From a virus, in IMG/VR virus record IMGVR_UViG_3300010883_027406, positions 21,365-85,364 of that record: 64,000 nucleotides of DNA; one strand, 5' to 3'. Positions 3,535 through 57,964 of the stretch are shown piece by piece. Position numbers and translations under genes: made by a program. Numbering within the stretch: the first letter of the stretch is position 1; each line of letters starts with the position of its first letter. Below the pieces are notes generated by a model. That model ran no database searches. It was given only the letters and a program-made list of their open reading frames with translations, and was not told the origin of the DNA.

Positions 3535-3548
3535 AAAGGAGCATTGTC

Positions 3549-4775
3549 ATGCCACGTCGAATCGAATCTGATCATAAAGACTTTAGGGACGTTGTCTCTG
3601 GCCGTATAAGAAAATCTCTTAAAAAGTATATTAATACGGGCAAGGTTTTTAGAAGAAGATCTAAAAACGGAAAAGTAACAATATCCATTCCTAGAATTGA
3701 TATTCCTAGACTTGTTTTTGGAGACAATGGGGATGGGGTAGGTCGTGGCGAAGGAAAGGAAGGGGACGTTGTAGGCAGAGACCCGCAAAAAGGCAAAGGG
3801 AATAAGGCGGGAGATCAAGAAGGAGAAGGGATATTAATTAATTTAGATCTGGAGGATGTCCTTTATTTCTTGCAGGACGAATTAAAGCTTCCTAACATTA
3901 AACCCAAGCCTAATGAAACTTTTCAAGAAGTTAAACTAAAATATAACAATATTGCTTTGACCGGACCTGAGTCTCTTCGTCATAATCGTCGAACTATGTT
4001 GCAGGCGTTAAAGCGAATGGCCGCAGGCGGCGAGTTAGACAAATTGCATTATATACCTGGGTATTCTGACCCGGTGCGATTAATCACTCCAATCAATTCT
4101 GACCGTCGTTATAAGCAATATACTGAGATTAAAGTTCCTGCTAGCAATGCTGTGATTTTCTTTGCTAGAGATGGTTCGGCTTCAATGGATCAATATAAAT
4201 GTGATATTGTTTCTGATATGTCTTGGTGGATTGATGCTTGGATTAGACATTTTTATGAAAGAGTGGAAAGATGTTATATTTGGCATGACACAGTGGCCCA
4301 AGAGGTAGACGAGGAAACATTTTATAGATATCGTTATGGTGGTGGGACAAAGTGTTCTTCTGCCATGAAACTTATTGGTAAGCAATTTGAGAATAGATTT
4401 CCTCCCAACAAATGGAACATCTATGTGATATATTTTACTGACGGAGAAAATTGGCAAGAAGACAATGCTTCGTTTATAAAGTCCATACAGGATTTAACTA
4501 ATGGTGGGGATGTTAATTTTGTGGGAATCTCACAGGTGATGGCTTATAACTATGAACAAAGTTTAAAAAATACCGTAGACGAATCTTTATCAAAAGGCGT
4601 TCTTGATAAAGATCTGGTGAGGACGACAGATATCTCTCCTGCTGATGGGTTATCGGCTCTTAGTGACGATGAGCGAGACGAGGCTATTAAAAATTCTATT
4701 ATAGATTTGCTGGGTGATGCATCGAAACCTGTTGCAAAGCCTGTTGCTGTTGATCCATCTGCTGGGGGAATTTAA
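3549..4775 (+). CDS. yeaH: DUF444 (YeaH/YhbH) von Willebrand A-like protein
   Basis: This is the DUF444 partner of PrkA, 408 residues against about 390-430 in bacteria. A basic, Gly-rich N-terminal part is followed by a VWA-like domain with a MIDAS-type sequence, FFARDGSASM near residue 205, and YFTDGEN about 90 residues later. In bacteria yeaG and yeaH are co-expressed under nitrogen limitation and in stationary phase; YeaH's biochemical role is not settled. An AAGGAG lies upstream of the start. The stop overlaps the SpoVR start in a TAATG, which suggests translational coupling. Confidence 0.93.
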   Translation: MPRRIESDHKDFRDVVSGRIRKSLKKYINTGKVFRRRSKNGKVTISIPRIDIPRLVFGDNGDGVGRGEGKEGDVVGRDPQKGKGNKAGDQEGEGILINLDLEDVLYFLQDELKLPNIKPKPNETFQEVKLKYNNIALTGPESLRHNRRTMLQALKRMAAGGELDKLHYIPGYSDPVRLITPINSDRRYKQYTEIKVPASNAVIFFARDGSASMDQYKCDIVSDMSWWIDAWIRHFYERVERCYIWHDTVAQEVDEETFYRYRYGGGTKCSSAMKLIGKQFENRFPPNKWNIYVIYFTDGENWQEDNASFIKSIQDLTNGGDVNFVGISQVMAYNYEQSLKNTVDESLSKGVLDKDLVRTTDISPADGLSALSDDERDEAIKNSIIDLLGDASKPVAKPVAVDPSAGGI

Positions 4776-6376
4776 TGAGCAAGTTTATGCATGGTTCCTC
4801 GGTTTTATTGGGGAACAATACTATTCCAGGTGTTTCAATACCTGCGGAGTTAGAAGTTCTTATCCCTACGATATTGCAGGAATGTCGAGATTTTGGATTA
4901 GACTTTTATCCTACTGTGGTTCAAATGCTCACTTATGACGAGATGAGCGAAATTGCTAGCTATGGAGGATTTCCTGTTAGGTATCCTCATTGGAAATGGG
5001 GAATGGAATACGAGGAGTTGCAGCGTGGTTATGAATATGGGATGCATCGGATATATGAACTTGTCATTAACACATCTCCATGTTACTTATATTGTTTGAA
5101 TTCCAATACTTTAGTTGACAACATCACTGTTATCGCCCATGCGACTGGGCATAATGACTTTTTTAAGAATAATATATTCTTTGCTCCCACTAGTCAAAAT
5201 ATGATGAATCGTTTGGCAAACAATGGAACACGCATTAGAAGATATATGAATCGTTGGGGGAAAGAAAAAGTTACTGAATTCATTGATCATGTGCTTAGAT
5301 TGGATACGTTGGTCGATCCTGTTAATGCTTGGTCTAAAAAAGAAATTAAAGATCCTGTAATTAGAGATTCAAGAGTATACAATCACCCTAAACGGTTAAA
5401 AGTCGAACATGGTTATATGGAGCCATGGGTTAATACCGAGAAATGGATTTCCCGCCAGCATGAGGATATTCAAAGAGGAGAGACAGCCGCAGAGTTAGGG
5501 CTGTTCACAGAGCCGCAGAGAGACATCTTGGGGTATTTAAGAGATTATGCTCCTTTAAAACCCTGGCAGGCTGATATAGTCGCTATGTTGTATGAGGAAG
5601 CTATGTATTTTGCCCCTCAAAGGGCGACAAAGGTTTTGAATGAAGGTTGGGCGAGTACGATTGATTTTGAAATTATGGCCAAGAGAGGCTTTGTGGGATT
5701 GGGCCAAGCAACTCATGATTGTGGAATTATTGATTATGCTCGGCATAAAACTGGAGTGTTGGGCGGAAAATATAGCATGAACCCTTATAAGTTAGGGTTT
5801 TATCTTTTCATGGATATTGAAGAAAGATGGAATAAGGGGAGATTCGGAGCCGATTACGAAAATTGTCAGAATATGAAGCAAAAGGAAAATTGGGATGAAG
5901 GTGTTGGATTAGGCAAAGACAAAATGTTTGAGGTAAGAAAGTATTATGATGATGTAAATGCTATTATGGAATTTTTTACGGAAGACTTTTGTAATAAATA
6001 TGAGTTTTTTGAATGGGAAAAATTTCCTAATGGGGAATACAAGATAAAGAGTCGTGATCATAAATCTATTAAATCTAAATTAGTTCGCCGCCACTTAAAC
6101 GGCGGATTGCCAGCGATACAATTAGTTGATCCTAATTATCAAAACAAACGACGGTTTTTACTCCAGCATCAGTGGGATGGTCGGGAGCTTTATCTTCCAT
6201 ATGTTAAGGCCACATTAACATCCATTTATGCTTTGTGGCAAAGTGATATATTATTAGCTACTAGGAATCGAGACAACGAGGAGATTGTTTATTTTTGTAA
6301 TGGCGTTAATGAAGAGGATGTTTTTGTGCTTACTAGAGAAGAGTGCGAGGGATTATCGTCTGAGTTGGAAGAATAG
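4775..6376 (+). CDS. spoVR: SpoVR (YcgB) family protein
   Basis: This SpoVR/YcgB family member has 533 residues, close to bacterial YcgB (about 510). Family features read along the protein: the early segment FGLDFYPTVVQMLTYDEMSEIASYGGFPVRYPHW (shown here only by name: residues about 37-70), the NSNTLVDNITVIAHATGHNDFF region, and a middle part with QRDILGYL and LNEGWAS. SpoVR is needed for normal spore cortex formation in Bacillus and co-occurs with PrkA and DUF444 across bacteria. The molecular function is unknown. The gene overlaps the DUF444 stop by TAATG and closes the operon; a 127-base gap follows. Confidence 0.92.
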   Translation: MSKFMHGSSVLLGNNTIPGVSIPAELEVLIPTILQECRDFGLDFYPTVVQMLTYDEMSEIASYGGFPVRYPHWKWGMEYEELQRGYEYGMHRIYELVINTSPCYLYCLNSNTLVDNITVIAHATGHNDFFKNNIFFAPTSQNMMNRLANNGTRIRRYMNRWGKEKVTEFIDHVLRLDTLVDPVNAWSKKEIKDPVIRDSRVYNHPKRLKVEHGYMEPWVNTEKWISRQHEDIQRGETAAELGLFTEPQRDILGYLRDYAPLKPWQADIVAMLYEEAMYFAPQRATKVLNEGWASTIDFEIMAKRGFVGLGQATHDCGIIDYARHKTGVLGGKYSMNPYKLGFYLFMDIEERWNKGRFGADYENCQNMKQKENWDEGVGLGKDKMFEVRKYYDDVNAIMEFFTEDFCNKYEFFEWEKFPNGEYKIKSRDHKSIKSKLVRRHLNGGLPAIQLVDPNYQNKRRFLLQHQWDGRELYLPYVKATLTSIYALWQSDILLATRNRDNEEIVYFCNGVNEEDVFVLTREECEGLSSELEE

Positions 6377-26706: not shown

Positions 26707-28332
26707 ATGCCTTCCGTATCTGATTTTTTAATCGAGCGGCTAGAGAACGCTAAGGTCGGGCATGTCTTTGGTCTGCCTGGGGATTATGTATTAAATTTTT
26801 ACAATAAGCTTTCCAAGTCTAAAGATATAAATCTTATAAATACAACCGATGAAAGCCATGCTGGATTTGCTGCTGACGCTTATTCTCGGATTAAAGGAAT
26901 TGGCTGTGTTTGTGTGACTTATAGCGTTGGTGGATTGAAGGTAGTTAACGCCACCGCTTGTGCCTTTGCTGAGAAATCTCCATTGATAGTTATATGTGGG
27001 TCTCCTGGGGTTAAGGAGCGTGAGAGCGGAGTTCTTTTGCATCATATGGTTAGAAGTTTTGAGAGTCAAAAAGAAGTATTTGACAACATAACATGTGCAA
27101 GTGTAGTTCTAGACAATCCTGCGACTGCTGGTTACGAAATTGATAGGGTTTTCGAGGCTCTTCATTATTACAAGCAACCAATATACATTGAGCTTCCACG
27201 AGATATAGCCGACAAGCCAATTGGGTATGATGTCAAGCTTGGAACTCCTAAATCCCCTGAAAGTGATGTTCAGAATTTAAATGAATCTCTTGAGGAGGTT
27301 GTTGATTGGATTGAGGGTGCTGAAAATCCTGTTATTTTAGCCGGTGTTGAACTTGCTCGTTTTGGCCTTGGAAAGGAATTGGTTCGATTCGCAGAGAAGA
27401 CCAATATACCCATCGCAAGCACATTATTGAGCAAGTCAGTAATAAGTGAAACTCACCCTTTGTTTTTAGGAGTTTATGCAGGCAACACTAGTGAACAATT
27501 GGTTAAAGAGTCCGTTGAAAATTCTGATTGTCTTTTAATGTTTGGAGCAATGTTGACTGATATGACGCTTGGTTTTATGCCATCCAAGTTCAAAAAAAGG
27601 AGAACGGTTTCTTGCTCTATTGATTCTTTGAAAGTTAAAAATCATGTTTATACAGATGTTGTTTTTGAGGATTTTGTTTGTGGTTTGTTTAAATCTGAAA
27701 TAACTAAAAAGCCCAACCCTGACGTTCCTAAGATTAAAGTTAAAAAATATAAATCTGTGAAAAACAATGCTTTGACTTCAACTAGAATTTTTGAAAAAAT
27801 AGGTTCTATTCTTGACGAAAACATGGCAATAGTTTGCGATATAGGCAATTCTTTGTTTGGTGCAATTGATTTAAGAGTCCACCACAGCAATCAATTTCTT
27901 TCACCTGCTTTTTATACTTCTATGGGATTTGCCATACCTGGCATTCTTGGACTGGGGATGGCTGCTCCTAATTATAGGGCAATTGCGATATTGGGGGACG
28001 GTGCATTTCAAATGTCATGCACAGAGTTGAGTACTTGTATTGACAATGATCTTAATCCTATTATTATCGTTCTTAATAATGGGGGGTATACAACAGAAAG
28101 ATTTTTGTTGGACGGTCCTTTTAATGACATTAGAAATTGGGAATATCATAAAATAACTGAAATGTTAAATGGTGGCGATGGAGTAAAGATAGAGACGGAA
28201 GGTGACTTGGACAAAGCGTTTGAGCAAGCTTTGGCAAGCAAAGAGCTTTTTATAATTAATGCTATTGTTGACCCTAAAGATATTTCCCCTGCCTTAGAAA
28301 GAATGGCAAAAGGTTTATCTAAGAGGGTGTGA
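26707..28332 (+). CDS. ThDP-dependent decarboxylase of the pyruvate/indolepyruvate decarboxylase family
   Basis: A 541-residue thiamine-diphosphate enzyme. N-terminal features are VFGLPGDYVLNFYNKL, the catalytic Glu in TTDESHAGFAADAYSR, and LLHHMV with the adjacent His pair (112-113) that marks decarboxylases of this family. The C-terminal ThDP motif begins GDGAFQMSCTELST and ends NNGGYTTERF. GLGMAAPNYRAIAILGDG fits too. Family members decarboxylate pyruvate, indolepyruvate, phenylpyruvate or branched 2-oxo acids; the substrate cannot be decided by eye. AGGAGGA-like SD precedes the start. Confidence 0.88.
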   Translation: MPSVSDFLIERLENAKVGHVFGLPGDYVLNFYNKLSKSKDINLINTTDESHAGFAADAYSRIKGIGCVCVTYSVGGLKVVNATACAFAEKSPLIVICGSPGVKERESGVLLHHMVRSFESQKEVFDNITCASVVLDNPATAGYEIDRVFEALHYYKQPIYIELPRDIADKPIGYDVKLGTPKSPESDVQNLNESLEEVVDWIEGAENPVILAGVELARFGLGKELVRFAEKTNIPIASTLLSKSVISETHPLFLGVYAGNTSEQLVKESVENSDCLLMFGAMLTDMTLGFMPSKFKKRRTVSCSIDSLKVKNHVYTDVVFEDFVCGLFKSEITKKPNPDVPKIKVKKYKSVKNNALTSTRIFEKIGSILDENMAIVCDIGNSLFGAIDLRVHHSNQFLSPAFYTSMGFAIPGILGLGMAAPNYRAIAILGDGAFQMSCTELSTCIDNDLNPIIIVLNNGGYTTERFLLDGPFNDIRNWEYHKITEMLNGGDGVKIETEGDLDKAFEQALASKELFIINAIVDPKDISPALERMAKGLSKRV

Positions 28333-28349
28333 ATTAATGGAGATTTACG

Positions 28350-29615
28350 ATGCAGTTTATTAAGCTGTATAATAAAATAACCTCATCAACTAAAAAGTCT
28401 AAGAAAATCAAAAAAAATGTTTTTTTAAATATTTTAGATGATTTTAATTATTCTTTTTATGAGAAGATTTTAAGTAAAGAAGAATTTCTTAGATTTTATA
28501 ATTTTTTTTCTGAAATTGATGTAGATCATCCCCATTTAGAGGAATTGTTCTCACCAGTTTTGGATGATTTAAATCGAATGCACGATCTTTATGTTGCATT
28601 AAACGAACTGAATAAATGTCGCCCAACTGACTTAGATTTGTTTTTTGAATTTTGTCGGTATATTAAAACCAAAAATCGTTGGTTTGAAGTTTTAAAAAAA
28701 ATAGATTCTCCATCTGTTAATCTTCTCAATATGCGATTTGTTTCGTGTAATAAAAAAAGAAATAATCTGAGACAAAATAAAAAGGTTCAAAGCATATCTT
28801 TATCAACATTGCTTTCAAGAGATTTTAGCGAATGGCAGAGTGTCTCCTCTAATTTTGATTTTTTTCATATTAATGGAAAACATTATGAGATGTATTTGTC
28901 TAAAGCCAAATCAAAAGCAAGTGTCTACGACAGGTTGGGATGTCAGTTTCTAGGGGATGAGGTAAGGAAAAATGCTAAAACTTTTGAAAACTTATATGGA
29001 GTTACAAATCATGGTTTTAGAAGAATAACTATGACTTCGGCAGCGGCTATATTGGCAAAAACTCATTCTTATGAATACGCTCCTTTTAAATCGTCAAACA
29101 CAGAGTTGACGAACGCCTTGTCGTCCAGCGAAATGATTGCTTCGATTAATGTATTTAAGTCTAAGCGATTTTTAGAAATCTTAAACAATATAGTTAATTT
29201 ATATTGTTCTCAAGTTGCTGCCAATGACGGAGTGATCGACCATAGCCTATTAAAACCTTTATCTTACTTAGAATCTGAACTCTATACGACAACCTTAGAA
29301 TCTGAACTCTATCCGACAACCGAAAGCTGCGAGTATAGCCCCAGATCGTATCCTTTGCATGATTTTTGGCCGTTGGCTAGCAAGAAAGTTAAAAATATCA
29401 TAAATCTTTTAGAATCTCATCCCGCTACGGGGGGTAGGGCTATTTTTGATAGTTATCGTGTTATAACTCCTAGTTTTTTTTTGAAATTTCCTGGATCGCA
29501 CGCTCAGTTAAGTAAGAAGTTAACGGATTTCGTTTTAACCATAAGTGAAATTATAAATCCTATAATTCTTGGTGAAAAAAATGGGAAATGTTACTTTGTA
29601 AGTTATTGGCATTGA
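28350..29615 (+). CDS. Unknown 421-residue protein
   Basis: No family is recognised. It is Phe/Leu/Asn-rich and looks alpha-helical, with a basic N-terminus (TKKSKKIKKN). A short duplicated stretch LESELYTTT-LESELYPTT (DNA about 29270-29320) marks a recent 27-base tandem duplication. The gene lies between the decarboxylase and the IscA-like gene, without overlap. Confidence 0.6.
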   Translation: MQFIKLYNKITSSTKKSKKIKKNVFLNILDDFNYSFYEKILSKEEFLRFYNFFSEIDVDHPHLEELFSPVLDDLNRMHDLYVALNELNKCRPTDLDLFFEFCRYIKTKNRWFEVLKKIDSPSVNLLNMRFVSCNKKRNNLRQNKKVQSISLSTLLSRDFSEWQSVSSNFDFFHINGKHYEMYLSKAKSKASVYDRLGCQFLGDEVRKNAKTFENLYGVTNHGFRRITMTSAAAILAKTHSYEYAPFKSSNTELTNALSSSEMIASINVFKSKRFLEILNNIVNLYCSQVAANDGVIDHSLLKPLSYLESELYTTTLESELYPTTESCEYSPRSYPLHDFWPLASKKVKNIINLLESHPATGGRAIFDSYRVITPSFFLKFPGSHAQLSKKLTDFVLTISEIINPIILGEKNGKCYFVSYWH

Positions 29616-29634
29616 TAAAAATTAGGGGTTAAAT

Positions 29635-30051
29635 ATGTTTCCTGTAGAAATATCCGAGAAGGCTGCATCTGAAATAAAAAAAGTAATGGAAGAGCAATCT
29701 TTAGAAAATTCTGCCCTTCGTATCGGACTTCAAGGTGGCGGCTGCTCTGGATTTCAGTATCTTCTTAATTTTATAAAAGAAGAAGAGGCGTCTGAGGATG
29801 AAGATTATGTTGATCAACAAGGAGATATTAAAGTTGTTGTCGATAAAAAGAGTGCAACCTATTTGCAAGGGACAGTCATAGACTTTTATAGCGGAATTGA
29901 TAAGCGTGGGTTTGTTTTTAACAATCCAGGCGCTGCCAAGTCTTGCGGATGTGGGTCAAGTTTTTCTCCTAAGGAGTCTGGTGATGGTAGTGATGGTGCT
30001 GAGTCTGGCGGTTGTGGAACCGGCGGTTGTAGCACAGGTGGTTGCGGATGA
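29635..30051 (+). CDS. IscA/HesB-type Fe-S carrier with Gly/Cys tail
   Basis: A-type iron-sulfur carrier with the three conserved Cys: one in GGGCSGFQY and two in SCGCGSSF. The family is about 105-120 residues; here an additional tail of about 25 residues reads GGCGTGGCSTGGCG, giving three more Cys. HesB/IscA-like genes are known in cyanophages and other marine phages. It may deliver Fe-S clusters to phage or host enzymes; the extra Cys tail may bind metal. Confidence 0.87.
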   Translation: MFPVEISEKAASEIKKVMEEQSLENSALRIGLQGGGCSGFQYLLNFIKEEEASEDEDYVDQQGDIKVVVDKKSATYLQGTVIDFYSGIDKRGFVFNNPGAAKSCGCGSSFSPKESGDGSDGAESGGCGTGGCSTGGCG

Positions 30052-30088
30052 TGGTAAAACGAATCGTTTGAATGTTGAGGATTAAAAA

Positions 30089-31612
30089 ATGTATATCGGT
30101 ATGAATTATGTTAATGGCGAATTTTTGCCAAATCGTTCTGACTTTTCTGTCAGTAGCCCAGCCAATGGAAGTCATTTAGGTGAATTTCCTTTAACTAGGA
30201 AAGGTGAAGTTTCTGATGCCGTAGCTGTTGCGAAACAGTCTTTTAAAAGTTGGAAACATGTCAGTAGAGTTAATCGGGCTGATCTTTTTGATAGATTATC
30301 TCAATTGATTAAGAGAGATACTTCTGCGTTGGCGGATGTTATTTCCTATGAAACAGGTAAAAACAGAAATGAATCATATGCCGAAGTGATAGAGTCCTTG
30401 CATATGTGTCAGTATGTTGCGGGATCAGGGAGACTTCCATATGGAAAGTTGGTTGGTTCCGAGTTGGCAAGTAAATCAGCAAGGGTTTTTCGCAAGCCCA
30501 AAGGTGTTGTGGCAGTAATTTCTCCATGGAATTTTCCATTGGCCATTGGTTCTTTTTGGTCTGCGGCACCTGCAATTGCAGAGGGCAATTGTGTGGTACA
30601 CAAGCCTAGCGAATTAACGCCAATGACATCGCAAATGGCGGCCAAATTGTATGGTGAAGCTGGGTTCCCTGATGGGGTTTATAATTTGATACACGGTGCG
30701 GAAGAAACAGGTAAAAATTTAGTTTCTAATCATGATGTCTCTTGCATATTATTCACAGGCAGTGCGGAAGTAGGACAGGAGATAAGAAAACATTGTGCGA
30801 CAACATGGCATAAGACCTGTTCTTGTGAGATGGGCAGCAAATCAGCCACGATGGTTTTTGAAGATGGGAATTTTGATCTTGCCACAGAAGTTTCTGTAGC
30901 CAGTGCATTTAAATTGTCGGGACAAAGATGTGTTTCTTCAAGCAGAATATTAATTCAAAGAAGTATTTATGATAAGTTTTGTTCTGCCTTTGCTAAGGCA
31001 GCATCTCAACTCCGCACAGGAGATGTGTTTTTAGATGATGATGTATATTATGGGCCTTTAATTTCTCATGATGCTTTGGAGAAAGTTGAAAGTTATAATT
31101 CTCAAGTTAGATCTGCAAGTGAATCTAGTGAAGATGTTAATGTTCTTTTGGACAGCCGAGACGGTCACTTTCAAACATCCGATGGTAATTTCTTGTCGCC
31201 ATTCGTTTATCAAGCAGAATGGTGGAATGATGTTGATGAATTAGGATGCAAGGCGTGCACAAGATCTTATTTGAAAGAAGAGGTGTTTGGGCCTCATGTG
31301 GCGTTGGTTCCTTTTGATGATTTGAATGATGCCATTAAAATTTATAATGACACCCCATATGGATTGGCTTTGGGGGCTGTCACCGACGATTTTAGAAAAC
31401 ATCGCATTCTTGAGGAAGAATGTAATACTGGCATGTTGTACATCAATGGTGGTAGCATTGCCGCAGAGAGTCATTTGCCGTTTGGAGGTATTGGAAAAAG
31501 CGGCAATGGCTGGAAGTCTGCCGCAGGTACATATCAGGCGGTCACAGAAGAAATATCTGTTACTACTAACTATGAAAAAGAAGTTGAGTGGGCACAGGGG
31601 ATGAAAAGCTAA
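30089..31612 (+). CDS. NAD(P)-dependent aldehyde dehydrogenase
   Basis: A 507-residue aldehyde dehydrogenase: VISPWNFPLAIG (cofactor-binding), FTGSAEVGQEI, the catalytic Glu 247 in CEMGSKSA, the catalytic Cys 281 in SGQRCVSSSR, EEVFGPHVALVPFDD and PFGGIGKSGNG. The length and catalytic residues are normal. Substrate is not set by sequence; two genes upstream is a ThDP decarboxylase whose aldehyde product could feed it. The stop overlaps the next gene's start as TAATG. Confidence 0.93.
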   Translation: MYIGMNYVNGEFLPNRSDFSVSSPANGSHLGEFPLTRKGEVSDAVAVAKQSFKSWKHVSRVNRADLFDRLSQLIKRDTSALADVISYETGKNRNESYAEVIESLHMCQYVAGSGRLPYGKLVGSELASKSARVFRKPKGVVAVISPWNFPLAIGSFWSAAPAIAEGNCVVHKPSELTPMTSQMAAKLYGEAGFPDGVYNLIHGAEETGKNLVSNHDVSCILFTGSAEVGQEIRKHCATTWHKTCSCEMGSKSATMVFEDGNFDLATEVSVASAFKLSGQRCVSSSRILIQRSIYDKFCSAFAKAASQLRTGDVFLDDDVYYGPLISHDALEKVESYNSQVRSASESSEDVNVLLDSRDGHFQTSDGNFLSPFVYQAEWWNDVDELGCKACTRSYLKEEVFGPHVALVPFDDLNDAIKIYNDTPYGLALGAVTDDFRKHRILEEECNTGMLYINGGSIAAESHLPFGGIGKSGNGWKSAAGTYQAVTEEISVTTNYEKEVEWAQGMKS

Positions 31613-32993: not shown

Positions 32994-33325
32994 GTAATCT
33001 GACGGATGCTGAAGGCAATGTGTTGAGTAACGTTCCTTCAATTAAGAATATTGTACCAACGGGGAGAGGCGTTTTAGTGGAGATGCTTACGGCGCAAGAG
33101 GCGTTAGGAACATCTTTGGTTGTTCAAGACGATGTGCAACTGGGCGCTCCTCAGGCGTACATTTTGCATATGGGGCCACATGTTGAAGGTAAAGACTTTG
33201 GCATGAAGGTTGGTGATCGTGTCCTCTTGCAGGGAACTTTTGTGCCTCTTCCTGAGTATGATGATAGTCATCGTCCTAAAGGCATTGTGCAGCCTGAGAA
33301 CATTAAGGCTATTATTGAAGAATAA
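32990..33325 (+). CDS. groES: GroES-like co-chaperonin
   Basis: The 111-residue protein follows GroES: PTGRGVLVEM, then a mobile-loop region LGTSLVVQDDVQLG, AYILHMGPHVEG, MKVGDRVLLQG and PENIKAIIEE. Phage co-chaperonins such as T4 gp31 replace host GroES so that GroEL can fold the large capsid protein. No GroEL lies in the window. The start at 32990 overlaps the upstream stop as ATGA; the stop overlaps the DnaJ start. Confidence 0.85.
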   Translation: MSNLTDAEGNVLSNVPSIKNIVPTGRGVLVEMLTAQEALGTSLVVQDDVQLGAPQAYILHMGPHVEGKDFGMKVGDRVLLQGTFVPLPEYDDSHRPKGIVQPENIKAIIEE

Positions 33326-34272
33326 TGGATCATTATGAAGTTCTTGGGGTTTCAAAAGAAGCAACTTTTGATGAAATCAAGTCTGCGTATCGCACGTTAG
33401 CAAGAAAGTATCATCCTGATACAAATAAAGATTTTGATGCTGTTGATCAATTCAAGCAAGTAAATGAAGCGCATCATGTTTTGGGCGACCCGGACAGGCG
33501 GTTGAAATATGATAAAAGGGGTTCCCATGTTGGGAATCCCTTTTATTCTTCGTGGAGTGATATTAGTGTTCGTGGTAGAGATGTTTCTTCTGAAATCACC
33601 ATTTCTTTAAATGATGTTTTTTTTGGATGTAAAAAAGAAGTAACTTATAAGAGAGCAAATTTTTGTGATAAGTGTAACGGACATGGTGCGGAGGAATGTT
33701 TGGCGTGTTTTTCTTGCAAAGGAAAAGGGCTGGTACAGGTATCGAATCCGCCATTTTTAATGCAGGTTACTTGCCCTGATTGTGTGGGCGTAGGGGTTAT
33801 GAGAAAAGGGGTTTGTTCTAAATGCGACTCTAAAGGTGAATTTTTATTAGATGATCGCTCAATTAGTGTCAGTATCCCTAAAGGAATTCTGGAAGGGTCT
33901 AAACTTAAGGTTAAGGGTCAAGGAAATATTGGGAAAGAAACAAATGGCGATCTCTATTTAACTGTTAATGTAGAAAATCATCCTATTTTTTTTAGAGATA
34001 ATAAGAATTTGATTTTGGATGTACCTGTTTCTTACACTCAATTGGTATTAGGAGACAAATTAGAAATCCCCACATTGAATAGCGGAAAGGTGTCCATCAA
34101 TGTTCCTGCCGGGACTGCGAATAGAACTAAATTTAGACTCAAGGGTCTTGGTTTTCCTGATGCTCGTCATGGGGGAGTGGGAGATCTTATAGTAGACGTT
34201 GTTTTGGAGGTTCCTAAAAAAATAAATGAAAAGTATGAGAAGATTTTGATTGAACTTTCTAAATTAGAATAA
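33325..34272 (+). CDS. dnaJ: DnaJ (Hsp40) co-chaperone
   Basis: A type-I DnaJ, 315 residues. The J domain (residues 1-65) has HPDTNK; a short linker follows. The zinc-binding domain has CDKCNGHGAE, CFSCKGKG, CPDCVGVG and CSKCDSKG, each a CxxCxGxG-type repeat, and the C-terminal substrate domain follows. It activates DnaK ATPase; host DnaK is the presumed partner, as none is seen here. The glycine-rich linker is unusually short, and the DNA coding it contains a long hairpin. TAATG overlap with GroES. Confidence 0.95.
   Translation: MDHYEVLGVSKEATFDEIKSAYRTLARKYHPDTNKDFDAVDQFKQVNEAHHVLGDPDRRLKYDKRGSHVGNPFYSSWSDISVRGRDVSSEITISLNDVFFGCKKEVTYKRANFCDKCNGHGAEECLACFSCKGKGLVQVSNPPFLMQVTCPDCVGVGVMRKGVCSKCDSKGEFLLDDRSISVSIPKGILEGSKLKVKGQGNIGKETNGDLYLTVNVENHPIFFRDNKNLILDVPVSYTQLVLGDKLEIPTLNSGKVSINVPAGTANRTKFRLKGLGFPDARHGGVGDLIVDVVLEVPKKINEKYEKILIELSKLE
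33514..33544 (+). other. 14-pair hairpin inside dnaJ
   Basis: AAAAGGG-G-TTCCCA (33514-33527) pairs with TGGGAA-T-CCCTTTT (33531-33544), only one G-U pair and a three-base loop, followed by a T-rich stretch. The position is just after the J-domain codons. It could weaken transcription or translation midway through the gene, or be a chance result of coding sequence. Confidence 0.5.
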
Positions 34273-35108: not shown

Positions 35109-35495
35109 TTAAAGGACAGTGATATCAATTATTTTAGATAATGAATCTGTTAGATCATCAGGTCTTCTTTGGAATATTACGTTCATAATTCTTCCCGTTT
35201 GCGGTGTTCTTCCTTTAATTTTTTTGAATTCATCCCAAGATAAATAAAGTTGTGTGCCGTCTTTTAGTTTTATAGATATTGGGGTCTTTTTTTCTTGGAT
35301 GATTATTATTTCACTTGTTTTTACGACAGATGGCAATACTAAGTCTGTACTGGGGAGGTGCAGAGGTCTCCCTGTCATGGAAAAAGTACTGCTTTGTTCA
35401 CTTCCTGACATATCGCTAGAAACGAATGCCCCTCCTGACAAAGATGCGCCAGGGACATTTGTTTCATTAATGAATTCTTTGAAATTTAGTTTCAT
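35109..35495 (-). CDS. MKxF-type phage protein, 128 residues
   Basis: It begins MKLNFKEFINETNVPG; FINE fits the (I/L)xE motif used by T4-like prohead proteases to cut internal proteins. A Ser/Gly-rich segment (SLSGGAFVSSDMSGSEQSSTF) follows, then a compact beta domain (residues about 55-128) with KDGTQLYLSWDEFKKIKGRTPQTG. No family is recognised. CATAAATA on the reverse strand at 35527-35534 lies 31 bases upstream. Confidence 0.65.
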   Translation of the reverse strand: MKLNFKEFINETNVPGASLSGGAFVSSDMSGSEQSSTFSMTGRPLHLPSTDLVLPSVVKTSEIIIIQEKKTPISIKLKDGTQLYLSWDEFKKIKGRTPQTGRIMNVIFQRRPDDLTDSLSKIIDITVL

Positions 35496-38766: not shown

Positions 38767-39198
38767 TTAAACACCATGTTCTTCCACTCGCTCTAGTGCT
38801 TCATCGTGTAAATGGGCATCAAAATATTTAAGAAGAACTTCTTTCAAGTTGTCTAGAGTGATATGAAAGGTTTTTAATATTGGATGGTTTTTATCAAGTT
38901 TTTCATGATTAACTTCTATCGGATCATTGTGGGTTATTTCATATTCGTTTGGATCATCGGGAGTCATTTGAACTCCAAAGTCTGCCTTTGATGTATGTCC
39001 TTTCATTCCTGGTGTCATTTCATAACTAAGATCATACACTACTTGATATACTTCCTTGTCCTCTCCTTGAGAGGGCAGACCTATGATTGCTGGTCTATTA
39101 TCGGCATATCCAATTTCTTCAACTTCAAACTTATAAGAACCGCCAGGTATATCATCCCGTGGATCATAATCTTCTAACCAAGTTTTGAATGATTTCAT
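38767..39198 (-). CDS. MKxF-type phage protein, 143 residues
   Basis: Begins MKSFKTWLEDYDPRDD, like other putative internal head proteins here, then a beta-rich domain (residues about 20-100: YKFEVEEIGYADNRPAIIGL, EVYQVVYDLSYEMTPGM) and an acidic C-terminal helix. No family is recognised. It is the second gene of a two-gene reverse operon; ATGA overlap with the zincin gene upstream. Confidence 0.6.
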   Translation of the reverse strand: MKSFKTWLEDYDPRDDIPGGSYKFEVEEIGYADNRPAIIGLPSQGEDKEVYQVVYDLSYEMTPGMKGHTSKADFGVQMTPDDPNEYEITHNDPIEVNHEKLDKNHPILKTFHITLDNLKEVLLKYFDAHLHDEALERVEEHGV

Positions 39199-39620
39199 AG
39201 TTCTTCCTTTATAAATTTATTCCATTCTTCGTGGTCATGAATGGTAATTTTATTTTTTGAATAATAATTTGCGTAGGCCATGCAGAATAGTTCTTCGGAA
39301 TTTTGATTTTGCTTGTTTTTAGTTTTTTTAACTATTTTTTTCCATTTGGCTTTTAGATCTTTATTTAATAATTCGCCCCATATCAAATGACCTATTTCAT
39401 GCAGTATTGTAAATTCTCTTCCATAGTTCCAAGGCGCTGCTATTATTATTTCTTTGTCGTCTATGGAACCAATGTGTTTTGGGTCGTTTTTTAGTGTGCT
39501 CTTAGGAGTGAACTTTATTTTATAGTTTTTCACAAGCTCTTTGTGTGCTTTAGGTAGTTTCCCTAAAGTCTTTTCTACTTGATCTTGTTCTTTTGATTCT
39601 ATAAATGTTTTAAAGTTCAT
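39195..39620 (-). CDS. Putative zincin metallopeptidase with MKxF N-terminus
   Basis: A 141-residue protein: MNFKTFIESKEQD at the start, then a small zincin-like domain with TILHEIGHLIWG (HExxH, His residues bind zinc and Glu is catalytic) and a downstream helix NSEELFCMAYANYYSKN whose Glu could be the third zinc ligand, as in gluzincins. The fold is minimal but plausible. Targets are unknown; with its MKxF start it could be packaged into the head and injected. It ends in ATGA overlapping the next gene. Confidence 0.65.
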   Translation of the reverse strand: MNFKTFIESKEQDQVEKTLGKLPKAHKELVKNYKIKFTPKSTLKNDPKHIGSIDDKEIIIAAPWNYGREFTILHEIGHLIWGELLNKDLKAKWKKIVKKTKNKQNQNSEELFCMAYANYYSKNKITIHDHEEWNKFIKEEL

Positions 39621-44667: not shown

Positions 44668-44916
44668 ATGGTTGTTTTGATTTGTATTTTATTGGTGTTG
44701 GTTTTAATTAATTTGATTTTTTCTATATTCATTGGCATTATTCTTGTTAGAGTTCTTGAATCCGTCATGCGTTTTGGGCGAGTTAAACCTGCACCGAAGC
44801 CGGACCCTAGAACCAGCAGCGGCCTGCCACCTGGCTTAGTTGATGTTCCGCCATTATATGATGTTCATGGCAATGTTGGTGATACACATGGTATGCAAGA
44901 TCAAACTGTTAAGTAG
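44668..44916 (+). CDS. Small membrane protein, 82 residues
   Basis: Residues 1-30 are one hydrophobic span (VVLICILLVLVLINLIFSIF), then a Pro-rich tail (KPAPKPDPRTSSGLPPGL). No family is recognised. It follows the structural gene by 11 bases and its 3' end overlaps the aldolase gene on the other strand by eight bases. Confidence 0.55.
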   Translation: MVVLICILLVLVLINLIFSIFIGIILVRVLESVMRFGRVKPAPKPDPRTSSGLPPGLVDVPPLYDVHGNVGDTHGMQDQTVK

Positions 44917-45937
44917 ATCGATAGACTCCCATTGCGGCTTCTGAATTGCATTTGGCTCTGTGGAGCAAGGCAGCCTGTGCTTTTTTAACAGTTCTTAACT
45001 CCATGTCTCCGCCCCACGCTTGTAACGCAGGTTGTTGCAGGGCACGTCCATAAGAAAATGATAATCGCCAAGGCCATTTCCCTATGCCTGGAATGATTAA
45101 CTTGTTTAAGAGATTAAGATGTTTTGTGGCGTCTTCGAAGCTTTGTCCGCCTGATAAAAAGGCTATGCCTGGTACGGCTGGGGGGACGGTTCTAGATATA
45201 CATTTTAAAGTTTTTTCTGCAACTTCTCTTCCTGTAATGTCAGCATTGAGACTGTTGTATCCTTCTAGAACCATGTTGCATTTTAAAATCATTCCTTCTA
45301 AAAACACATTTAAAAAGTGTAGTTCTGAAAACGTGTTTTTTAATACTTTTTCTGTTATTTCAAGAGATTGGTCAACATTTTGATTGCCGTCCATGAGAAC
45401 TTCTGGTTCGACAATTGGCACTAATCCACATTCTTGGGACATTGCTGCAAAACGAGCTAAATTTATGGCGTTTTCACGAATACAGGTGTAAGACGGGATT
45501 TCTTTTCCTACGGAGATAACTGCTCTCCATTTGGTGAATGAGGCGCCAAGTCTTTTGTATTCTTTTAACCTTTCTCTTAATCCGTCTAAGCCTTCTGTTA
45601 ATGTTTCTCTTTCGTGTTGGGCCATTTCTTTTGCGCCTTTGTCTACTTTTATTCCGGTCAAGATTCCTTTATTTGATAGATATTTAGGAAATGGAGTTCC
45701 GTCAAATGTTTTCTGATTTATAGTTTCATCATACATGATGACGCCACTGATGTACTGCTCTAGCCCTTCTGTTGTAAAAAGAATATTTCTATAGGCCCTT
45801 CTTAATTCATGCGTTGATCCGGTATTAATGGACTTAAATCTTTTGGTTATGGTCGGGGTGCTTTCGTCTGCCGCAAGGATTCCTTTTCCTAGAGACACCA
45901 ATTGCTGCGCAGTTTTAGATAATTTGGTTTTTTCCAT
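44909..45937 (-). CDS. fba: Class I fructose-bisphosphate aldolase
   Basis: A 342-residue class I aldolase, which uses a lysine Schiff base to cleave fructose-1,6-bisphosphate. Seen: GKGILAADESTPTITKRF, LEGMILKCNMVLEG with the Schiff-base Lys, and FLSGGQSFEDATKHLN plus WRLSFSYGRALQ (phosphate binding). Length matches the animal/plant-type enzyme (about 360), with a shortened C-terminal tail (ends GVYRST). It may help redirect host carbon. It is a single gene on the reverse strand. Confidence 0.95.
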   Translation of the reverse strand: MEKTKLSKTAQQLVSLGKGILAADESTPTITKRFKSINTGSTHELRRAYRNILFTTEGLEQYISGVIMYDETINQKTFDGTPFPKYLSNKGILTGIKVDKGAKEMAQHERETLTEGLDGLRERLKEYKRLGASFTKWRAVISVGKEIPSYTCIRENAINLARFAAMSQECGLVPIVEPEVLMDGNQNVDQSLEITEKVLKNTFSELHFLNVFLEGMILKCNMVLEGYNSLNADITGREVAEKTLKCISRTVPPAVPGIAFLSGGQSFEDATKHLNLLNKLIIPGIGKWPWRLSFSYGRALQQPALQAWGGDMELRTVKKAQAALLHRAKCNSEAAMGVYRST

Positions 45938-53449: not shown

Positions 53450-53992
53450 ATGAATATTTTAGATAAAGATGAAGCGTGGACAATGTACAATGAGTTCTTC
53501 TTACGATCAGCATTTCTTGGTACCTTGTCGAAGCCGTGTGTCTCGTCGGCATATGATGAGGAAGCTCAGAACACTGTTTGGAACGAATTCGGCAAAGCGC
53601 TGGGCAGCCTGAACGACAAAGGATTTTGCAGATGGGAAGCTGCCTCCGCTATTGATGCCTCTTATGAAGCGTCTAAATATCTTAATGAGTTTAATAACTT
53701 ATACAGATTATTGATGGATATTGCACTTGAGTGTGAGCCGTGGATATCGTCGGACGACGAGATCGAGTGTAAGGCAAGCTACTTTTCACAAATGGCCGGT
53801 ATGTATGATGATATTAGTCCAGAAGAATTGAGATTGAGTTACGCCGAAGGAAAATGCTATGAGGAGTCGTCGAACCGCTTTGTAGAACTAACAGTTGAAC
53901 AAACAAAATTCATAGTTTTGATGGGGTCAACAATCATCGAAAATTGTTGGTTGGAACTCCGCTCACACAATGAAGGCAAGGAGGAATTATAA
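53450..53992 (+). CDS. Unknown 180-residue protein
   Basis: An acidic, Trp/Glu/Ser-rich, helical protein without a known family. Base use is less AT-biased than in neighbouring genes (for example GTCGTCGGCATATGATGAGG), as in the next gene. AAGGAAGAA lies upstream. Stop is one base before the start of the 724-residue orphan. Confidence 0.55.
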   Translation: MNILDKDEAWTMYNEFFLRSAFLGTLSKPCVSSAYDEEAQNTVWNEFGKALGSLNDKGFCRWEAASAIDASYEASKYLNEFNNLYRLLMDIALECEPWISSDDEIECKASYFSQMAGMYDDISPEELRLSYAEGKCYEESSNRFVELTVEQTKFIVLMGSTIIENCWLELRSHNEGKEEL

Positions 53993-53993
53993 A

Positions 53994-56168
53994 ATGAGCG
54001 ATCAATATTCAGGCAATACTATTGGCGGCACTTACAGGTCTAAACGTTCCAATGTTTTAATCGACATACGTCAAGCACTCAGAGAATTGGACACACTGGG
54101 AACAACTATCGACCAACTTGAGGAGTCCAAAGAAGTTTTTTCAAAAATAATTTCCTTAAATCGTCGGCATGACTCAACAATTCCCAGCCCAGCGAATCTT
54201 GATGTTGTCAGAAAACAGTTTGATGTTGTCAGAAAAAAAATGATAGCTTCAGAAAAAACTTGTAGTGAATTGGGCGAGCATTTCACAGTCCACAACGGTT
54301 CGGCTAATGATGGCTTAATCACGATGAAAAAAAACATCGATAAGCAGGATGTTATTGAGGAAGCTATTGAGGCGATTGAGTTTTCTGAAGATCCAATAGA
54401 GATTTTGACTCAGGATTATAGTTCCGAAGAAAAGAAGGAGTCTAGGAGTTATGCTTATCACAGGCTTGACGCCAATGGCAAACCGATAACTAAAGCCATT
54501 AACGCTGGCTTGTTCATAGTTCACGACAAGTTAATGGACATAGTTCAGGCTTGGAATGAGGGTTTAATTGATAAACACACTCAGTTGGTTCTTGTGTCAG
54601 TCGGTAGTGTTGAAGAAAATGGCGAAAAAATAAAGGTAGTGGACATCCTGTCCTCTAACTTTGACTTAATTCTTGAGAACACGACTAAGGAAATGGGCTA
54701 CGACAGTGTCCCTAGTTTCGACAAGTCACCGAGGTTTTGGCACAAGTCTATCCACACACTGAAAGAAAACAGCAAATGTGATTACAACGAAAATGGTTTT
54801 GTATGGTCTGACCTAAAGGGGAAAATTCAATACGCTTTTTTAGACTATTGCGGCAACAATAATTTTAAGTATATGAATTGGTACGAACAAGTATTGTACC
54901 CAATGATGAGCAACACGGCTCATGTTGCTATCAATCATTTTTCCTATGTTCGAGGCAATAGTTCATGGAGGGATATATGCAAAAAGTTTTTAGATGCCTG
55001 CTATGAAACTACCAATGCCATTGGTTGCTACAGATGGTTACAAAAGAATGGCAAAATGGATGATTTTAAGTCTAGGTACGAAGATGGTCTATATGCAATT
55101 AACGAAGCGTATGGCCATGATGATATAGAACACAGCGTGATTCAATTGCTAGGTTTTCATTCTATTGAATTAGGAACTCGTTGCACGCATGAGATTATCG
55201 ACAGAGTGTGTAAAAAAAATCCAAACTTGATGATGGATGGATCAGGGCCTGCAATCGACCGACTTGACGATGATGCGTGGTCTACATACCTCTCAACAAC
55301 TAGTGACAACGAAGTTGCCCAGCTTCACGCATTGAATTCCGCCTATGGGAGTTTGTCGTTGGAAGCGAGCCATAAGACTGAGCACGCAATAGAACATTTT
55401 GATTCCGCATTGATAGCCTCTGCCTTCTGGAAAGCTACATATCTTGACCACAAAAATCCACAAGCATTTGTTACAACGCCCCAAGCCGCCGAAGCGGTTC
55501 GGGAGATTACTAAAAACATAAAAAACAATAAACCAAGATTCTCCAATAGTTGGAAAGATGTACAAGACACACACGATAATATGCACCCATATGATATGGA
55601 TAGGTATGAATATCAGGGTTCGCAGGGTTCGAGTAAAATGGTAATCCACAAGTTCATTGTTTTCAAACAAGCGCCAAAGTTCAAACATAAACCCAATTTA
55701 TCGCTGGATCACCCCCGACAGACATCAACATTAAAGGGCATGCTTGAATACTCAACGATTTATGAACGATTTAGTCCACATTCAATGATGCTTCTGAATA
55801 TTGAAGAAACAGCAGCCGATGAAGCAGGAACGGCAACGAATTTTATTTTTGACGAAGATGGCTCAATAATGTTTGAGGGATTGAACCTGCATCAATCAAA
55901 TAGATTTAGTGATGAATATTGTGTAAAGGACGCCGCAAGGAGGATGAGCCACGCAAGTTCTTTGTCAGGATGCGTTAGAGGAATAGTTCAATGTTTTGAT
56001 ATCGACTTATTTAGCGAAGAAATGGATGAACACATGAACAACTGGAAACACATCCCTGCACTGCAAGGACTTACGTCGTCTGGGCTTGCCACGCCGACAA
56101 TGGAGTGCTTTGCCGATGTGTTAGCATTGCCAACATGCACAGAAGTGTTGCATGACGGGGAATCGTAG
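53994..56168 (+). CDS. Large orphan protein, 724 residues
   Basis: No domain is recognised. The N-terminal 120 residues look coiled or disordered; there follows YAYHRLDANGKPITKAINAGLFIVHDKL, and later sections rich in His, Asp and Cys (HTLKENSKCDYNENG, EHSVIQLLGFHSIELGTRCTHEIIDRVCKKN). Repeated DVVRKQFDVVRKK suggests a small duplication. A strong SD (AAGGAGG) with ATG 53994 decides the start. Base composition resembles the 53450 gene. It may belong with the 53450 gene as a two-gene module. Confidence 0.6.
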   Translation: MSDQYSGNTIGGTYRSKRSNVLIDIRQALRELDTLGTTIDQLEESKEVFSKIISLNRRHDSTIPSPANLDVVRKQFDVVRKKMIASEKTCSELGEHFTVHNGSANDGLITMKKNIDKQDVIEEAIEAIEFSEDPIEILTQDYSSEEKKESRSYAYHRLDANGKPITKAINAGLFIVHDKLMDIVQAWNEGLIDKHTQLVLVSVGSVEENGEKIKVVDILSSNFDLILENTTKEMGYDSVPSFDKSPRFWHKSIHTLKENSKCDYNENGFVWSDLKGKIQYAFLDYCGNNNFKYMNWYEQVLYPMMSNTAHVAINHFSYVRGNSSWRDICKKFLDACYETTNAIGCYRWLQKNGKMDDFKSRYEDGLYAINEAYGHDDIEHSVIQLLGFHSIELGTRCTHEIIDRVCKKNPNLMMDGSGPAIDRLDDDAWSTYLSTTSDNEVAQLHALNSAYGSLSLEASHKTEHAIEHFDSALIASAFWKATYLDHKNPQAFVTTPQAAEAVREITKNIKNNKPRFSNSWKDVQDTHDNMHPYDMDRYEYQGSQGSSKMVIHKFIVFKQAPKFKHKPNLSLDHPRQTSTLKGMLEYSTIYERFSPHSMMLLNIEETAADEAGTATNFIFDEDGSIMFEGLNLHQSNRFSDEYCVKDAARRMSHASSLSGCVRGIVQCFDIDLFSEEMDEHMNNWKHIPALQGLTSSGLATPTMECFADVLALPTCTEVLHDGES

Positions 56169-56170
56169 TT

Positions 56171-56608
56171 ATGAAAATCATTTTCCTTGATATCGATGGT
56201 GTATTAAACACCATACGAACTGCCAAAATTTTAGGAGATCATTTCATTGACGAGTCCTGTGTTGCTCTTGTGGCTCATATCGTTAAAGAAGCAAATGCAA
56301 AAATAGTCCTTTCTTCTAATTGGAGAATTGACGAGGACGATAAAAAAATAGTAGAAAAGGCACTATCCCCTCATGATCTTGAAATTTTTGACTGTACCCC
56401 TGTAATTGAGCATCCGCCTAATGAGTCTTTTGTATTCCGAAGTAAGGAAATACAATCATGGCTCGATAACAACGCAGTTCAAAAGTTTGTTGTTCTTGAT
56501 GATGATCCAAGAGCAGACTTACAAGAAGGGTCTTTTTTCCAAGTCGATGAAACAATTGGTTTAACTATGGAAATAACCGAAAGGGCGATTGCTCATCTGA
56601 ACGCATAG
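56171..56608 (+). CDS. HAD-like domain protein (RNA-repair type)
   Basis: A 145-residue HAD-like phosphatase: FLDIDGVLNTIRT (catalytic Asp pair DxDGVLN), VLSSNWR (motif II) and VVLDDDPRADL (motif IV). It matches the small HAD domain found in 'Swiss Army Knife' RNA-repair fusions. Alone it might act as a 5' nucleotidase or a repair phosphatase. It follows the orphan gene after two bases. Confidence 0.82.
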   Translation: MKIIFLDIDGVLNTIRTAKILGDHFIDESCVALVAHIVKEANAKIVLSSNWRIDEDDKKIVEKALSPHDLEIFDCTPVIEHPPNESFVFRSKEIQSWLDNNAVQKFVVLDDDPRADLQEGSFFQVDETIGLTMEITERAIAHLNA

Positions 56609-56616
56609 ATAATACC

Positions 56617-57180
56617 ATGAAAACTTTCTTTGAATGGTTATTATCTGAAAATGAGGAACTCCAAGGACTTGTGCCTCAAGAAGAAATTGGAAGTGGTCAT
56701 TTTGCTACGGTGTATGCTACACAAAATCCCGACATCGTTATGCGTATGGAAAAAAGGAATGATCCAAATTCCTGCGAAAAATTCATGTCTGACCCGGCAG
56801 TTCAAGCTACCGGCGGGGTTGCAAAAATTTTTGGCACAAAAAATCAGATTACATACAAAGAAAGAGTTGATATAAATTGGTCCCAATATTTGGCTGCCAA
56901 ATACAAAGAAGTTTTAGAAAGCAAGTATGATATTGCAAAACTTCTTCGAATCATGCCTTATGGATTGGAAACTGCAAAAAAACATGGAGAAACTGCTGCC
57001 TTTTTGCAACTAGCCCTAGAAGCTTTTCGGCAGAAAGATGTTATAATTGATTTTTTACAAATCTTTAATGAAGCCGCAGGGCTTATCGAAGCCATTAACA
57101 TGGGGTTGCCATTTGATGATTTGCATTCAGATAACTTGGGGATCAATAGAAGTGGCAAACTCGTTGTAATCGATTGTTAA
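56617..57180 (+). CDS. Minimal protein kinase-like protein with MKxF N-terminus
   Basis: A 187-residue protein: an MKxF-type N-terminus (MKTFFEWLLSENEE), then EEIGSGHFATVYATQ (Gly-rich loop) with VMRMEKR, and at the end LPFDDLHSDNLGINRSGKLVVIDC, a match to the catalytic loop HxDxN and a DFG-like VID. It stops directly after the DFG equivalent, so the C-lobe is short, as in RIO/APH-like or truncated kinases. Activity is possible but not certain. The N-terminus suggests packaging into the head. Confidence 0.6.
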   Translation: MKTFFEWLLSENEELQGLVPQEEIGSGHFATVYATQNPDIVMRMEKRNDPNSCEKFMSDPAVQATGGVAKIFGTKNQITYKERVDINWSQYLAAKYKEVLESKYDIAKLLRIMPYGLETAKKHGETAAFLQLALEAFRQKDVIIDFLQIFNEAAGLIEAINMGLPFDDLHSDNLGINRSGKLVVIDC

Positions 57181-57418: not shown

Positions 57419-57964
57419 TTAATTCAAGGAAGGATCTAAAGGTATGTTTTTTATTGATGCTTTTAATATCTCTAGGTATTCTGTGTTTAATATTTCGTTC
57501 CATAAACTGTCTTTTAAGTTAAAAACATATTCTAATTTTGATTCAAATATAAACCAAGAACCTGATTCAATTTCTTGTTCTATTTGACCAGTTTTCCATC
57601 GGCAATAACCTGCGAAAACTTTTAGTGTTTTTTCTTTTTTTATTATTTTATTTATTGTTTTCTTTGTTACTGTAAAATATACTTTATTTGTAATATATTC
57701 TTCTCCTAATTTTTTGTTTGTATGAATGGATATGATCGGTCCATCTATTGGCCCTCCTATATTGATTAATTGATTTGATTTTTGTTTGTAGCCAGTTGAT
57801 TCTTCCCATATTTTTTCTATTGTTGCGCTTTTTAAATACTTATCTATTATTATTCCGTATGCGCCTTTGTGGCTATGTTCTAATATTAATATTGTGCTTT
57901 TTTCGAAAATGGAATCTTTAATTTCAGGCGAAGCAACCAGTAAATACCCTCTAAGTGATTTCAT
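57419..57964 (-). CDS. algH: AlgH/YqgE (UPF0301) family protein
   Basis: A 181-residue AlgH-family protein: LRGYLLVASPEIKDSIFEKSTILILEHSHKGAYGIIIDK (residues about 4-42), then NIGGPIDGPIISIHTNK, FAGYCRWKTGQIEQEIESGSWF. Family length and motifs are complete. The bacterial function is not established. A phage copy is unusual. AATAAATA precedes on the reverse strand at 57993-58000. Confidence 0.92.
   Translation of the reverse strand: MKSLRGYLLVASPEIKDSIFEKSTILILEHSHKGAYGIIIDKYLKSATIEKIWEESTGYKQKSNQLINIGGPIDGPIISIHTNKKLGEEYITNKVYFTVTKKTINKIIKKEKTLKVFAGYCRWKTGQIEQEIESGSWFIFESKLEYVFNLKDSLWNEILNTEYLEILKASIKNIPLDPSLN

Follow-up and report, generated by a model that had tools for sequence, protein, structure and literature searches.

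A C-lobe-less, T7 gp0.7-type kinase-fold protein behind a T4-like capsid-targeting leader: a candidate packaged phage effector and possible pseudokinase

Does a phage protein that carries kinase motifs, ends almost without a C-lobe and begins like a T4 internal protein represent a kinase-type effector that is packaged and injected? A first-pass annotation raised this question for one gene in a 64-kb stretch of viral DNA (the window), which is the final part of an 85,364-base viral record. The 187-residue ORF that it described is present at 56617-57180 with an ATG start, and it follows two genes on the same strand:

53970-56168, plus strand: gene for a 732-aa protein, 2 bp upstream of the HAD-family gene
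56171-56608, plus strand: HAD-family gene (PF18143 HAD_SAK_2, phrog_1818, from Pfam and PHROGs), ending 8 bp before the next gene
56617-57180, plus strand: gene for the 187-aa, C-lobe-less kinase-fold protein of the T7 gp0.7 type (motifs, PHROG, profile, AF2 and coding bias)

Scored against the codon usage of the window itself, this frame obtained 0.294 bits per codon, compared with -0.27 to -0.03 for the other five frames and a range of -0.06 to 0.49 for the other window ORFs of at least 150 aa. The stop-free frame at the locus extends over 209 codons, for which the chance probability is ~4e-7 per position. Given its coding bias and its tight spacing after two same-strand genes, the ORF is a real gene, and the HAD-family gene is likely co-transcribed with it. 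Pfam and PHROGs searches with the 732-aa neighbour gave no significant family match. The kinase-fold gene is immediately followed by an AlgH-like (DUF179) gene in the opposite orientation (57419-57964, minus strand), which has no PHROGs match.

Pfam and NCBIfam searches with the 187-aa protein returned nothing significant. The sole significant family matches were phrog_18305, annotated 'kinase' (1.6e-6), and phrog_3809, function not known (7.6e-5); both alignments span nearly the whole protein, and both profiles continue 50-100 positions past its end. A close homologue was found neither in phages (tblastn) nor in viral contigs nor among 50 kin records. The lone protein match in the kin, in L103, was an unrelated ORF that we judged spurious, and no homologue of phrog_3809 or phrog_18305 was seen in the kin except for a weak fragment match in G037 (0.016). 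Distant relatives were collected by scanning 2.9 million viral contigs with the back-translated motif D-h-H-x-x-N-h-G-x4-G-x3-h-h-D, which yielded 96 stretches, 80 readable loci and about 68 distinct relatives. Nearly all of the ORFs at the readable loci were 170-270 aa long, with the motif close to the C-terminus. A family profile built from 43 relatives, with the 187-aa protein left out, matched this protein at 1.7e-12 in a single-sequence search, and the same profile matched T7 gp0.7 at 2.2e-10. Because the motif had served for selecting the relatives, residues 1-164, which do not contain it, were scored separately; they reached 9.1 bits, above all of 1000 shuffles (maximum, 7.7). In addition, 8 of 44 relatives matched phrog_15752, the PHROG of T7 gp0.7.

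T7 gp0.7, an early, soluble protein with proven Ser/Thr kinase activity and an N-terminal kinase domain of ~30 kDa (PMC4858673), is the closest biochemically characterised relative of the 187-aa protein. Besides the family profile, the two share a GxGHFxxxY loop (GNGHFSAAY in T7), a D-h-H-S-x-N loop and a metal-binding Asp that is not followed by a kinase C-lobe, the T7 tail being charged and non-kinase-like. However, T7 gp0.7 has a beta-3 Lys and an extra C-terminal host-shutoff domain, and it does not carry a capsid leader (PMC4858673).

The following elements were located within the gene:

56617-56649, plus strand: putative capsid-targeting leader MKTFFEWLLSE with a predicted prohead-protease site LSE/N (L9-S10-E11), from the sequence, the T4 ip starts, clade enrichment and cyanophage kinase leaders
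56689-56715, plus strand: glycine-rich loop GSGHFATVY, residues 25-33, from alignment columns (G27 in 41 of 44 rows)
56743-56745, plus strand: Arg43 (CGT) at the position of the beta-3 'VAIK' lysine, from the alignment and an AF2 strand at residues 40-45
56875-57099, plus strand: run of helices, residues 87-161, forming a reduced C-lobe in the AF2 model (low to moderate confidence)
57118-57141, plus strand: catalytic loop D168-L-H-S-D-N173-L-G175, from the invariant columns D168, H170, N173 and G175
57172-57177, plus strand: metal-binding Asp186 (DFG position) and the terminal Cys187, followed by the stop, from sequence and alignment

The glycine-rich loop is thus where the first-pass annotation had placed one (G25-S-G27-H-F-A-T-V-Y33). 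Its HxDN/DFG-like endpoints held in part, with a D-L-H-x-x-N loop and D186 present but the canonical His replaced: Phe166 occupies the HRD-type His position, two residues before the catalytic Asp. The invariance of D168, H170, N173 and G175 in the alignment concerns residues that belonged to the scan motif used for selection. The activation segment, the APE motif and helices F-I of a canonical Hanks-type kinase are absent.

The annotation had also proposed structure prediction and a comparison with RIO and APH kinases. With the family alignment, AF2 produced a kinase-type model (pLDDT 77, pTM 0.69) that is confident mainly in the N-lobe, most of which exceeds 85, while the middle helices lie at 53-70. 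These helices are uncertain because the family alignment is so divergent (14-24% identity to the 187-aa protein). A single-sequence AF2 model (pLDDT 40) was set aside. Almost all Foldseek matches of the AF2 model in the PDB were kinases, Rio2 among them, and the best matches among viral models were phage proteins, several of them annotated protein kinase; global TM-scores were low, at 0.29-0.46 to the PDB and up to 0.52 to viral models. The model and the order of the glycine-rich loop, catalytic Asp/Asn loop and metal Asp therefore point to a protein-kinase-like fold.

As to the type of kinase, Foldseek also gave weak matches to methylthioribose kinase, and the virion kinase of cyanophage S-CREM2 is annotated APH/ChoK-like (PMC10665884), both of which would fit a small-molecule kinase of the APH/choline type acting in phage or host metabolism. 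The 187-aa protein, however, is without the substrate-binding APH C-lobe, and the sequence profile indicates T7 gp0.7 rather than APH, and a small-molecule kinase is therefore improbable. HopBF1-type minimal kinases have a reduced kinase fold and act as injected effectors. Together with the SteC/NleH kinases they resemble the 187-aa protein in this reduction and serve as effectors, but they are delivered by bacterial secretion systems, act on eukaryotes and have no phage leader. The matches of the 187-aa protein to SteC/NleH were partial, mainly in the N-lobe.

The C-terminus is VVI-D186-C187-stop, where the chain ends one residue after the metal Asp. Gene decay or a broken frame, with loss of the kinase C-lobe and the catalytic lysine, could produce such an end; the two PHROG profiles do run 50-100 positions further, and the catalytic lysine is indeed gone. 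Nevertheless, 60 of 68 distinct viral motif ORFs have a tail of at most 20 residues past the metal Asp (median, 7), and in twelve viral ORFs, the 187-aa protein included, the tail is exactly one residue. In a scan of 84,980 genomes from bacteria and archaea, the same motif was matched 41 times; the tails of these ORFs had a median of 104, and just 10 of the 41 had tails of at most 20 (Fisher p=1.5e-11 versus the viral ORFs), and some of the 10 are probably phage-derived or chance ORFs. Within 240 bp downstream of 57180, no frame encodes the missing C-lobe, and coding bias is normal. From the frame analysis and the tail distribution of the relatives we rejected a frame-shifted or truncated gene, and decay in general is very improbable. 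The near-absence of a C-lobe, to which the first-pass annotation had drawn attention, is normal for a C-lobe-less phage kinase family and not damage. The profile match and the early chain end place the 187-aa protein, as judged from sequence, in this T7 gp0.7-like family.

Whether the protein is an active kinase is a separate matter. The first-pass annotation was borne out on the kinase-type fold by PHROG (1.6e-6), family profile (1.7e-12) and AF2/Foldseek, but it had overlooked the beta-3 position. In the 44-row alignment, all 43 other rows have Lys in this column, which was not included in the scan motif, and only the 187-aa protein has Arg (Arg43); the lysine expected of an active protein kinase is therefore missing. 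Lys-to-Arg at beta-3 is the standard kinase-dead mutation, and KSR proteins are a natural example of it. In addition, CGT is not a single-base reading error from AAA or AAG. These observations favour a pseudokinase, packaged or not, that would have the fold and perhaps bind nucleotide, transfer no phosphate, and work through binding to a protein of the host or the phage. On the other hand, Arg preserves the positive charge, and D168, N173 and D186, which pseudokinases often lose, are all kept; the scan required them, yet they are the protein's own residues. We give the pseudokinase a little less than an even chance. Because the catalytic Asp, the Asn and the metal Asp are retained, the 187-aa protein may be able to bind nucleotide, but because Arg43 replaces the ATP-anchoring lysine, catalysis is doubtful, with the odds about equal for and against.

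At the other end of the protein, the start MKTFFEWLLSE fits the pattern MK-x-[FY]-x-x-[FW]-[LI]. (L/I)-x-E is the cleavage rule of the T4 prohead protease, and a site of this form lies inside the leader at L9-S10-E11, just as the first-pass annotation had pointed out. The leader aligns with the starts of T4 ipII and ipIII (MKTYQEFIAE) and of ipI (MKTFKEF). In T4, the ip leaders are conserved capsid-targeting sequences on otherwise diverse injected internal proteins (PMC3012670). IPI, IPII and IPIII share the MKTF/Y-x-E-F/W-I/L start with the 187-aa protein, but they are small and have unrelated folds, and IPI* is a restriction enzyme inhibitor, not a kinase.

Leaders of this kind were counted with simple regular expressions in records that are related to one another. 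Four ORFs in the window have one at the first Met, compared with 0 of 297 internal Met positions; among the kin loci, leaders stood at the first Met of 26 of 423 and 29 of 363 ORFs versus 5 of 1963 and 3 of 1677 internal Mets (about 0.2%). Within the kinase family, 19 of 77 members (a redundant count) carry a leader, which was more frequent in records with a gp21 protease (7/12) than in those without (3/30; p=0.002, with no correction for shared ancestry).

These data bear on whether the protein is instead a kinase that, like T7 gp0.7, is expressed early and serves host takeover without being packaged; its likeness to the leader would then be coincidental. T7 gp0.7, early and soluble, matches the same family profile (PMC4858673), and about three quarters of family members are missing the leader. 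However, the leader of the 187-aa protein matches position by position, no chance match occurs at the internal Mets of the window, the L-x-E site is present and the clade is full of such leaders; we therefore regard a non-packaged early kinase as unlikely, though deserving of consideration.

Cyanophage virions have been reported to contain protein kinases (PMC10665884). The S-CREM2 virion kinase (gp14) starts V(M)KRFDAFLTEE, and the S-CREM2 virion SAM hydrolase starts MKDFDSFLEE. The S-CRM01 kinase SCRM01_130c, with the start MISFDQFLSE and a match of 3.8e-10 to the family profile, is probably the virion-detected kinase of that phage, judging from PMC10665884. Both kinases thus have, like the 187-aa protein, a kinase domain behind a leader of the MKxFxxFLxE type, but they are 755-821 aa long, having an extended N-terminal region as well as a long stretch beyond the metal Asp. 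Packaging of the 187-aa protein is plausible by analogy, because its leader matches those of the T4 internal proteins, such leaders are enriched in the clade and related cyanophage kinases are linked to virions. A search by Pfam for a gp21 or gp23 gene found none in the 85-kb record or its sister record, both of which are fragments, and Peptidase_S78 was absent from the 15 records tested. Two large records from kin genomes, G027 and G035, each have a T4-type gp23 and a gp21-type protease.

Taken together, we favour, with somewhat better than even confidence, a C-lobe-less, T7 gp0.7-type kinase-fold effector that has a T4-type capsid-targeting leader, is packaged and is possibly a pseudokinase. 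The gene, its family membership and architecture, and the match and enrichment of its leader are demonstrated; from these we infer packaging, cleavage, injection, a target and any catalysis. The leader would put the protein into the prohead core, where a gp21-type protease would cut after LSE to leave a mature protein of ~176 aa. This protein would enter the host together with the DNA and engage a host target at once. It would phosphorylate that target or, given that Arg43 stands in for the ATP-anchoring lysine, act as a pseudokinase that binds nucleotide or protein.

If packaged, the 187-aa protein would act on the host ahead of any phage gene expression, and virion-borne kinases would be a general tool rather than a cyanophage curiosity. 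A broader proposal is that T4-type leaders allow phages to carry an entire class of C-lobe-less T7 gp0.7-type kinases in the capsid and inject them, the Arg43 member being a pseudokinase packaged in this way; it is tentative, and we consider it rather less probable than not. The C-lobe-less family offers natural kinases without anything past the metal Asp, which bears on the minimal fold for phosphotransfer, and the Arg43 member provides a built-in test for pseudokinases within the family.

Several other leader-like starts were observed. In the window, three minus-strand genes begin in the T4 manner, namely 35109-35495 (MKLNFKEFINE), 38767-39198 (MKSFKTWLED) and 39195-39620 (MNFKTFIES), the last with a weak match to a metalloprotease PHROG. 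In many kin (e.g., L002, L004, L008, L010, L014 and L015), opposite-strand ORFs with leaders are again found immediately upstream of phoH. The 72-kb phage contig IMGVR_UViG_3300046534_001281 (L107, L135) has three C-lobe-less kinase-like genes with leader-like starts and ends of the form FDP[LI][NS], which suggests an expansion resembling the T4 internal proteins. In S-CREM2, the Cas9-like virion protein gp12 (L209:7704-10313) has a leader-like LRFASFMAEAA soon after its annotated start, and S-CRM01_128c has a similar segment, LSLDSFIKEAA.

Elsewhere, the window is rich, for a phage, in metabolic genes of cellular type (26707-31612, 33325-34272 and 44909-45937), among them genes for a thiamine-pyrophosphate enzyme, an Fe-S assembly protein, an aldehyde dehydrogenase, DnaJ and a class I fructose-bisphosphate aldolase. 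A prkA-yeaH (DUF444)-spoVR/ycgB operon lies at 1438-6376. PrkA, too, is a protein kinase, albeit an unusual bacterial one; the window copy is 64-74% identical to those of about 43 further viral contigs and 100% identical in one sister contig, and it therefore marks a phage clade.
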